This document shows positions 13,171 to 15,702 of a stretch of 29,677 nt of DNA, one piece after another. Source of the DNA: a virus; the IMG/VR virus record IMGVR_UViG_3300037502_000902, positions 1 through 29,677 of that record; one strand, 5' to 3'. How positions within the stretch are numbered: position 1 is the first letter of the stretch; every line of letters starts with the position of its first letter. The translations under genes and the position numbers were made by a program. The notes under the pieces are model-generated. The model saw only the letters and a list, made by a program, of their open reading frames with translations, was not told the origin of the DNA and searched no databases.

Positions 13171-13303
13171 TTTGTAAATTTTAAGCAATAAAAAACCCTC
13201 CGTAAATCCATAGGCTCCCACATCTACTTCATTACAAAGGGTTAATAACTTCTTAAGGTTCTATAACGTGGGAAGCGAACCTACTAAATAATAGTATAAA
13301 AAG
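13171..13303 (-). promoter_or_regulatory. Folded leader before the replication gene
   Basis: This 133-base gap holds several complementary pairs on the minus strand: AGGTTC/GAACCT (13282-13277 and 13262-13257), a loop segment TCCCAC able to pair with GTGGGA about 50 bases downstream, TACTA/TAGTA around 13280-13295, and AACCCT/AGGGTT followed by T6. Together they suggest a folded leader with an attenuator-like end. It shares TTTGTAATGA with the element at 15633-15695. No known riboswitch consensus is recognised. Confidence 0.35.
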
Positions 13304-14444: not shown

Positions 14445-15118
14445 CTTATCAATTCGTTAAAATAGGTTCGACAATGTTCAATTCGTGTTTTCATCTCGTT
14501 AACAACACCTTCATTATATTCAACGTGGAAAGCTTTTACTCTTCGGTCTTTCGGTATATGGTCGAAATTATGAACAGACATAACATCTCGAATAGTTTCT
14601 TCAGAGGGTTCGATTTCGTATTTTCCCCAAGCGGTGCGTCGTATTTCATCGTTGACAATTTCTTCAGGTGTGTTAATTAAACAATAACTTATTAAAGCGT
14701 TTTTCTTTCCAGTAAGCCACATATAACCCATAACTTGGTAATAATAGTCTTTATTTGGTAGTTCGTCTTCAAAGAACGGGAATGTATCTCCAGACCAACT
14801 ACTTTTTACGTCAATTACTAAAGAGTGAGTAATTATGTCGGGTGTTCCTTTAATGTAATCGTTTTGGTAGTAGTCTTCGTTCTTGGTTAAAAACTCAAAT
14901 CCCAAAACCTCTTCAGTGAGTTCGATTGCTTTCTCTTCGACTTCGTTTCCTTTGTCAGTGTAACGCGACTTAAACACCTTTTTAATGCCGAACAAGTGTT
15001 CTTTCGCAAGTTCTTCGACGTAGGTCTTTGCGGTTTGACTTAACACCTCAGATTTACTCCGAGAGCTTGTCATAATGCGACCTAATTGTGAAGCTCTAAT
15101 TTTTAATTCATTTTTCAT
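14441..15118 (-). CDS. YqaJ-type recombination exonuclease
   Basis: This is a lambda-exonuclease-like 5'-3' exonuclease that works with a single-strand annealing protein. It has 225 residues. The PD-(D/E)XK core is visible: E59/E61 in DKGNEVEEKAIE, GTPDIITHSLVIDVKSSW (about 91-108) with the Asp and the Asp-x-Lys pair, and YYYQVMGYMWLTG (about 125-137), the usual Gln-bearing helix. ERF, its functional partner, lies just upstream beyond the HNH gene. Together they form a recombination module for repair and concatemer formation. Confidence 0.9.
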   Translation of the reverse strand: MKNELKIRASQLGRIMTSSRSKSEVLSQTAKTYVEELAKEHLFGIKKVFKSRYTDKGNEVEEKAIELTEEVLGFEFLTKNEDYYQNDYIKGTPDIITHSLVIDVKSSWSGDTFPFFEDELPNKDYYYQVMGYMWLTGKKNALISYCLINTPEEIVNDEIRRTAWGKYEIEPSEETIRDVMSVHNFDHIPKDRRVKAFHVEYNEGVVNEMKTRIEHCRTYFNELIR

Positions 15119-15597
15119 TTTATACTTTTTAAATAATTATCTCTTTCGTTAATAGCATCTTCTAAATTCACAAAATATCCAATATGTTTAGAACCTTCTG
15201 AACTATAAATAATAACCCTATATTTATTACGTACTTTATAAATATTATATAAACCAGTATTACTATTTGTGGATTTTCTTTTATTTTCTCGTTGAGTAAT
15301 TAATTGTAAATTACACAGCCTGTTATCATTTTTATCATTATTAATATGGTCAATAGCTGTTTTACCTTTTATTGAATTTATATTATTAAAAGCATTATAA
15401 ACAAGCCGATGAATATAAAATGTTTTTTTTGATTTATTCGATAACATTACGTGTAAATAACCATTACCATTATTACTTGGACACAATATTTTTTCAATAT
15501 TTGCAGTTCCATTTCTTGGTAAACTTTTAACTCTACCTAAATTACTAACTTGATACAATCCTTCGTATCCAATTACATCTTTCCAAACTTCTTTCAT
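15115..15597 (-). CDS. NUMOD4-HNH homing endonuclease
   Basis: This is a free-standing homing-type endonuclease. NUMOD4 is at about 5-27 (WKDVIGYEGLYQVSNLGRVK), an HNH core is at about 63-100 (HRLVYNAF, then DHINNDKNDNRLCNL), and an AP2-like DNA-binding end is at about 114-157 (NTGLYNIYKVRNKYRVII, GYFVNLEDAINERD). The gene is far more AT-rich than its neighbours (13 G/C in the 60 bases from 15241, against 24 in the 60 from 14941 in YqaJ), a sign of recent arrival. It sits between ERF and YqaJ but is joined to YqaJ by ATGA, so it does not break expression. Two 13-base direct repeats and a structured element lie just upstream. Confidence 0.9.
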   Translation of the reverse strand: MKEVWKDVIGYEGLYQVSNLGRVKSLPRNGTANIEKILCPSNNGNGYLHVMLSNKSKKTFYIHRLVYNAFNNINSIKGKTAIDHINNDKNDNRLCNLQLITQRENKRKSTNSNTGLYNIYKVRNKYRVIIYSSEGSKHIGYFVNLEDAINERDNYLKSIK

Positions 15598-15602
15598 TTT
15601 TT

Positions 15603-15629
15603 TTGCGTTTAAATTATTGCGTTTAAATT
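15603..15629. repeat. Tandem 13-bp direct repeats before the HNH gene
   Basis: The 13 bases TTGCGTTTAAATT occur at 15603-15615 and 15617-15629 (plus strand), a 14-base period. They lie between the three-way-junction element and the HNH start codon. They could be a protein-binding site or a mark of insertion. Confidence 0.55.
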
Positions 15630-15632
15630 GAA

Positions 15633-15693
15633 AATGAGGAAAGCGTAAACGCTTCGCTTTTTCAGTTGGTAGCTACTCCAACCTATCCTCATT
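15633..15693 (-). ncRNA. Predicted three-way-junction RNA element
   Basis: On the minus strand the ends AATGAGGA (15693-15686) and TCCTCATT (15640-15633) pair perfectly over 8 bases. Inside are hairpin P2, GTTGG/CCAAC (15682-15678 with 15669-15665, 8-base loop), and hairpin P3, AAGCG-TTTA-CGCTT (15654-15641), stacked directly on the closing stem. A TATATTTG promoter box ends two bases upstream, so a transcript would begin at about the first stem. It may be a 5' regulatory structure for the HNH/YqaJ genes or a small phage RNA. No ribozyme or riboswitch consensus was recognised, and a DNA role of the inverted repeat is possible. Confidence 0.5.
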
Positions 15694-15694
15694 A

Positions 15695-15702
15695 CAAATA
15701 TA
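15695..15702 (-). promoter_or_regulatory. Host-type -7 box beside the structured element
   Basis: TATATTTG on the minus strand fits TAnnTTTG and is followed by TAATGA as at the leader near 13.23 kb. No TTTG is found 19 bases upstream, so the promoter is weaker than those at 9.96 and 18.04 kb. It would start a transcript covering the structured element, HNH and YqaJ. Confidence 0.45.

Follow-up and report, generated by a model that had tools for sequence, protein, structure and literature searches.

A conserved three-way-junction leader RNA with a self-complementary loop before homing-endonuclease genes of many phages

Among the non-coding elements of phage genomes, we found an unlisted RNA family that, in many phages, lies before genes for homing endonucleases and before other mobile genes. 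Its starting member is in a window of 29,677 nt, the whole stretch of DNA that was analysed (IMG/VR virus record IMGVR_UViG_3300037502_000902). A first-pass annotation of the window had described a three-way junction at a promoter, between the ERF and HNH genes; this observation is correct, and understated. The main finding is the combination of two features that it overlooked: a hairpin loop (L) that can pair with either of two downstream sites (R1 and R2), and a palindromic loop in the second hairpin (P2). At the level of sequence, comparison of relatives establishes the stems, the complementarity of L to R1 and R2 and the loop palindromes, as well as the place of the promoter and the association with the downstream genes. 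We are moderately confident that the element is a cis-acting leader which controls translation of the homing endonuclease, with L:R1 as the on state and L:R2 as the off state, biased by RNA–RNA dimerisation so as to give a self-sensing control of dose.

Architecture of the element

The closing stem AATGAGGA/TCCTCATT, the P2 and P3 hairpins and the TATATTTG box of the first-pass annotation were all located on the minus strand at 15633-15702. The parts of the element and its gene are as follows.

15632-15694, minus strand: conserved three-way-junction RNA, 63 nt
15695-15702, minus strand: TATATTTG, the -7 box of a Bacteroidota-type promoter (TAnnTTTG)
15690, minus strand: predicted transcription start G, inside P1 (box spacing according to PMC9723704)
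15687-15693, minus strand: P1 5' strand AATGAGG (closing stem); 6 of 7 pairs with two-sided changes
15633-15639, minus strand: P1 3' strand CCTCATT, partner of 15687-15693
15684-15686, minus strand: junction strand AUA, invariant (31/31)
15664-15683, minus strand: P2 hairpin GGTTGGAGTAGCTACCAACT with a basal G.U invariant in 31/31; 4 of 6 pairs with two-sided changes
15670-15675, minus strand: self-complementary hexamer UAGCUA of the P2 loop (core AGCU, 15671-15674), proposed kissing-loop site
15661-15663, minus strand: junction strand GAA (consensus GAN), G and A invariant
15640-15660, minus strand: P3 hairpin AAAGCG-AAGCGTTTA-CGCTTT; 4 of 6 pairs with two-sided changes, 98.9% paired
15646-15652, minus strand: L, GCGTTTA (RNA GCGUUUA), in the P3 loop, complement of R1 and R2
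15619-15625, minus strand: R1, TAAACGC (RNA UAAACGC), first complement of L
15605-15611, minus strand: R2, TAAACGC (RNA UAAACGC), second complement of L, 7 nt upstream of the ATG
15115-15597, minus strand: NUMOD4/HNH_3 homing endonuclease gene after the leader (Pfam NUMOD4 6e-15, HNH_3 9e-8)

In the family form, P3 directly abuts P1 and has a loop of 9 nt. The smaller hairpin AAGCG-TTTA-CGCTT that was drawn initially, and that also appears in the minimum-energy fold, is a misregister or local alternative, as the family pairs AAAGCG (15660-15655) with CGCTTT (15645-15640) around AAGCGTTTA. Folding against shuffled controls, the check proposed in the first-pass annotation, gave modest support (MFE -19.8 kcal/mol, z -2.7, 2 of 200 shuffles as good), but the opposite strand reached z -3.2, and single-sequence folding is undecisive because the reverse strand scores alike. 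For the predicted transcript from the element's own promoter, taken as far as the start codon (15690-15594), folding was no better than in shuffles (z -0.8), by a measure that covers nested energy only and ignores pseudoknots.

Family membership and conservation

Members were gathered by pattern scans of IMG/VR, of which one used a pattern shifted by one base, by a single protein-based scan and then by covariance model searches. Removal of near-duplicates left 74 non-redundant elements, a set that excludes chromosomal and prophage copies in Bacteroidota host genomes. The exact P2 19-mer occurs in four environmental phage contigs with different surroundings; three of these share the architecture with different stem sequences, and the element is therefore a real conserved one. 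The phages that carry it are mostly those of Bacteroidota, including the isolated Polaribacter phage P12002L (L007) and Parabacteroides phage PD491P1 (L033), together with a few phages with TATAAT promoters (L072 and L082) and genomes of Pseudomonadota type. Among the GC-rich members are L027, L031 (Mariprofundus micogutta), L175 and L176. The TATAAT and GC-rich members suggest that the family spans more than one phylum, the weakest of them (28-41 bits) being less certain.

A model search of 391 Clostridia genomes returned one weak match (L171), a plain hairpin judged to be false, and the model is therefore specific; matches were found in 5 of 398 genomes from the phylum of Mariprofundus. The scan of genome contigs with the pattern that was off by one base gave three loci, of which L030 and L032 have no model match and the third, the Mariprofundus locus L031, is likely a real member. 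L166 and L022 were removed from the family as false, and a Rhizobium phage with an exact 18-mer match lacks the rest of the element. Short BLAST queries against isolated phages returned mainly chance matches.

Structure statistics were computed from 31 members aligned without gaps over 63 nt. Pairing was kept in 94.9% of 589 pair cells, with 143 double-sided changes as compared to 43 in shuffles, and 14 of the 19 pairs had such changes (P1 6, P2 4, P3 4). The covariation score was 0.645 against 0.195 for shuffled alignments (reached by 0 of 500), and at most 0.145 when the pairing was slid; all measures except the number of pair types beat all 500 shuffles. Compensating changes, which the first-pass annotation had asked for, are thus extensive and two-sided, and all three stems are kept. 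The positions G8 A9 U10 A11 G12, U20 (in the P2 loop), U31 G32 A33, A35 A36 and U54 U55 C56 are invariant in 31 of 31 sequences.

That no known RNA pattern fits, as had been remarked from the letters alone, was borne out by the Rfam scans. At the gathering threshold, no Rfam 15 family matches the window or L012, L014, L040, L072 and L130, and under permissive settings no score rose above chance level, the best being nqrA-II with 18.2 bits versus 55. No ribozyme family reaches its gathering score in these scans, which argues against a self-cleaving ribozyme. For a self-splicing intron, there is no intron model match in the Rfam scan, and the element sits between intact ERF and YqaJ genes. In the openly searchable literature we found no description of such an element; Fremin and Bhatt list thousands of unnamed candidates (PMC8040213), and an earlier listing without a name is possible.

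Promoter and transcription start

A TAnnTTTG box stands immediately upstream of the element in 53 of the 74 non-redundant copies, as compared to 2% of random windows, while the motif alone is common in our window (46 found, 44 expected). No good -33 box is visible by eye in the window. In Flavobacterium, the TAnnTTTG box is at -12 to -5 (PMC9723704). With this spacing, P1 is paired at 91–100% from +1 on, at 62–68% at -1 and -2, and at 21% at -4. The box spacing and the pairing profile thus place the start of the RNA, probably, within P1. The first-pass proposal that the RNA begins at the junction itself holds in outline; the predicted start, G15690, lies inside the closing stem and would leave 4 bp of it.

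Positions -1 to -3 of P1 are paired at 62–96%, as compared to 33–73% with shuffled partners, and this above-chance pairing upstream of +1 may reflect start-site variation or read-through transcripts. The same excess, together with the location of the cassette within an operon, would fit a timing device like that of T4 I-TevI, in which the full P1 forms only in read-through transcripts and own-promoter transcripts fold differently. We regard such a device as improbable: own-promoter transcripts retain a median of about 4 P1 pairs, with 91–100% pairing from +1, so P1 forms either way.

Downstream genes

In nearly all copies, the element directly precedes the gene that it accompanies, at a near-constant distance from the start codon, and control of the HNH gene is the best supported of the roles considered in the first-pass annotation. 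Control of YqaJ, also put forward there, does not agree with the relatives, whose element accompanies whichever gene comes immediately after. Among 69 downstream proteins scanned, there were 26 with HNH_3, 24 with NUMOD4, 7 with NUMOD1, 5 with DUF723, 4 with GIY-YIG, 4 with phage integrase and 2 with AP2 domains, and one each with Bro-N, KilA-N, DUF6291 and prim-pol. The downstream genes are therefore mainly homing endonucleases unrelated to each other (HNH/NUMOD, GIY-YIG, DUF723). The same type of leader also stands before a 328-aa tyrosine recombinase in several contigs (L014, L017, L046, L050 and L052), where its palindrome varies between close relatives.

In the window and in L003, the element and the HNH gene are placed between ERF and YqaJ, while in Nonlabens phage P12024S the ERF and YqaJ genes adjoin, without the element or the HNH gene. 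Together, the element and its gene resemble a mobile cassette that brings along its own promoter and leader.

Pairing of the P3 loop with two downstream sites

A site of at least 6 nt complementary to L was found downstream in 71 of the 74 elements, as compared to a mean of 8.2 when L was permuted among elements. Two such R sites of at least 6 nt were present in 57 of 74, with a mean of 2.2 and a maximum of 8 in 200 permutations of L. The same core of L is complemented twice in 62 elements, which have 51 different cores; a few members (L042, L125, L168 and L172) have no clear second R copy. R1 and R2 are usually spaced by 13-19 nt. The end of R2 is a median of 4 nt from the start codon, and the first model position is a median of 97 nt before it; the structure is thus held at a fixed distance directly upstream of the endonuclease gene, as in a cis-acting translational regulator.

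L can pair with only one R site at any time, so that the two pairings are mutually exclusive. Their computed strength is similar, with a median of -11.2 kcal/mol for L:R1 and -9.75 kcal/mol for L:R2 against -3.2 for a mismatched control, and the stronger partner of L is R1 in 48 of 74 elements and R2 in 16. Bacteroidota are without Shine–Dalgarno signals, and their translation is influenced by A residues at -3, -6 and -11 to -15 (PMC7366714). R2 overlaps this stretch of A residues, and in the TATAAT member L082 it overlaps a Shine–Dalgarno-like CGGAGG.

Several other leaders show loop-to-leader pairing. In the 95 nt that precede the gene start in L065 and L066 (locus 2001 / 1305), the leader is driven by TATAAT and has neither P2 nor a three-way junction; a hairpin loop CTCGACCA is followed by two copies of TGGTCGAG ahead of the ATG, so that the platform is kept behind a simpler front. 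Upstream of position 2001, the leader of an HNH gene in L060 contains a loop TTCACGTT, two ACGTGAA copies and a different P2-like part, and is perhaps a sister class. The endonuclease leader of Flavobacterium phage hattifnatt9-1 (L008, 1660-1772) carries CCACCAA and one downstream TTGGTGG after a TACATTTG box, and is perhaps a one-target version. Within the window itself, at 13190-13300 on the minus strand, a hairpin AGGTTC/GAACCT has a 15-nt loop (TTCCCAC) complementary to GTGGGAG further on; this leader precedes a DUF6291-like gene (phrog_15768, as for the gene after the L010 element). By the model it is a non-member, perhaps with a different loop-to-leader pairing, and the block TTTGTAATGA that the first-pass annotation saw as common to both leaders is uninformative.

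The palindromic loop of P2

A palindromic tetramer is present in 59 of 59 distinct P2 hairpins, with seven cores (AGCT, GGCC, CATG, GATC, AATT, CGCG and GTAC). Three further P2 hairpins, outside this scripted count and judged by eye, have the palindromes AGCT, GGCC and AATT. When the columns of the seven cores were shuffled, about one palindrome was obtained on average, and never seven of seven in 2000 shuffles. As to how the loops were sampled, some pattern scans fixed the loop AGTAGCTA and others left it free, and the whole-record model search added loops. The self-complementarity is kept through sequence change across all 59 hairpins and seven cores, as it would be in a kissing loop. In some members, only the four palindromic bases are self-complementary and their flanks do not pair (GGTCATGT, A[CT]TGATCC).

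The palindrome is not enriched elsewhere in its own leader (10 observed, 11.4 expected), which leaves pairing of the P2 loop within that leader unsupported, and the partner is therefore another molecule with the same loop. The palindromes point to loop–loop homodimers, which would form in the cell. The loop is exchanged between relatives: L101 and L126 are 99% identical outside P2 and have the whole loop swapped (TTTGGCCA versus AGTCATGA), and the P2 loops of the integrase leaders L017 and L050 likewise differ. Phages often carry two or three elements (three in L130; two in L036/L097, L025, L040, L045 and others), and in the 12 pairs within one phage the palindromes and L always differ. All 12 pairs fit avoidance of each other's palindrome by paralogues, without reaching significance (P = 0.11).

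As P2 is an inverted repeat and the element always accompanies mobile genes, it could in principle be a DNA element, such as a protein operator, a DNA-mobility hairpin or the target of a homing enzyme. The details speak for RNA: in nearly all members the centre of the palindrome is displaced by one base in the 3' direction from that of the hairpin (plus or minus half a base in a few), so that the DNA has no single dyad; G-U pairs are used; and the positions of R2 and P1 follow the start codon and the transcription start, respectively. We consider a DNA element extremely improbable.

The junction offers another reading. Its nucleotides (AUA, UGAN and G.U), invariant in 31 of 31, might bind a small molecule, or else a protein of the phage or its host, in a ligand-gated riboswitch, for which L:R1 and L:R2 would be the expression platform and P2 dimerisation a side feature. 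Two mutually exclusive pairings are a classic platform of this kind, but only about six unpaired junction bases are conserved, which is few for a metabolite pocket, and the regulated genes have no common metabolism. A riboswitch would also leave unexplained why the P2 loop stays palindromic through seven sequences, and we find it unlikely.

Proposed mechanism

In the scheme of a self-sensing leader, transcription from the cassette's own promoter would start inside P1 and give an RNA that opens with the P1-P2-P3 junction. R1 lies some 20-28 nt ahead of the start codon, and its pairing with L would leave the start site open; alternatively, pairing of L with R2, against the start codon, would block the ribosome. 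Through the self-complementary P2 loop, two copies of the RNA would bind each other, and this contact, which depends on the amount of the same RNA, may bias the choice between L:R1 and L:R2. In this way each element would specifically regulate itself, and a DNA-cutting enzyme with the potential for harm would stay at a low level. We infer the switching, its direction, the dimerisation in the cell, the repression by L:R2 and the logic of the feedback.

The least certain step is what directs L onto R2 in cis, as L:R1 is often the stronger pairing. Dimerisation by itself does not force L onto R2, since two full-length mRNAs bring two L and four R into the homodimer. One consistent scheme is that the molecule's own L sits on R1, while the L of a second molecule, docked by P2:P2, takes R2. 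Such docking would account for the palindrome as well as for the second copy of R, and the system would then sense its own abundance.

The second L might also come from a short P1–P3 transcript acting in trans, ended at the pyrimidine- or U-rich stretch after P1 or left as a decay remnant, which would pair with R2 of the full mRNA after nucleation by P2:P2 kissing, in the manner of the antisense RNAs of plasmid copy control. Such a small RNA would account for the two R copies and the self-recognising loop; P3 and its tail resemble a terminator (1 site on this strand and 2 on both strands, 0.1 expected), and the three positions surrounding the P1 end are U at 66–78%. The GC-rich members L027, L031 and L175 do not conserve this U tract. 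A phage small RNA, as the first-pass annotation suggested, is possible but not favoured as the sole role, and we regard the trans-acting form as rather unlikely.

More tentatively, the self-sensing leader may represent a class of self-recognising riboregulators with two self-addressed codes, the palindromic kissing loop and the L/R1/R2 triplet, in which an mRNA is silenced only by its own kind. If this were true, the palindrome swaps of L101 and L126 would be incompatibility-type changes between selfish genes competing in one cell.

If the proposed reading is correct, the selfish genes that are commonest in phages are coupled to a widespread RNA family which Rfam does not recognise. The comparative evidence for RNA–RNA homodimerisation is unusually clean here, and raises the question of whether a bacterial mRNA senses its own abundance by pairing with another copy. 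The family would also be a natural source of numerous loop and switch codes that differ from one another, and the element could serve as a marker for mobile cassettes in uncultured phages.

Comparison with known systems

As a cis-acting leader RNA, the element is of a kind already known; self-recognition would be the more novel case. In plasmid copy control of the CopA/CopT and RNAI/RNAII type, loop–loop recognition likewise uses diversified, self-specific sequences, with sense and antisense RNAs from opposite strands, whereas here a single RNA is predicted to recognise itself. HEARO and omega RNAs are conserved RNAs adjoining IscB HNH genes. Our element has no Rfam match, its genes are free-standing (HNH, GIY-YIG, DUF723 and integrase), and the RNA is a short leader before the gene. 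GOLLD and ROOL are phage-associated multimerising RNAs, ROOL acting via kissing loops (PMC12286853), but they are several hundred nt long, are not gene leaders, and had no match in our Rfam scans.

The dimerisation initiation site of HIV-1 has a similar loop palindrome of 6 nt (or 4 nt) with 5' flanking bases and pairs with a copy of itself (PMC7357161), while in our case the palindrome belongs to the leader of a phage mRNA, next to a predicted start-site switch, and is exchanged between relatives. Homing endonucleases need to be held down, and hairpins that hide the start site limit the translation of I-TevI, segB and mobE (PMC2988022). The T4-type hairpins (I-TevI, I-TevII, I-TevIII, segB and Aeh1 mobE) resemble our element in that a 5' RNA structure hides the start of a phage endonuclease (PMC2988022), but they are simple, hide the ribosome binding site and are coupled to late promoters. 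The element described here joins a conserved three-way junction to a loop with two alternative targets and to another that is predicted to pair with itself, and it is shared by unrelated endonuclease families and probably by more than one phylum. The T4-type hairpins are its nearest counterparts in purpose and the HIV-type kissing loops in the dimer motif, and neither combines these parts.
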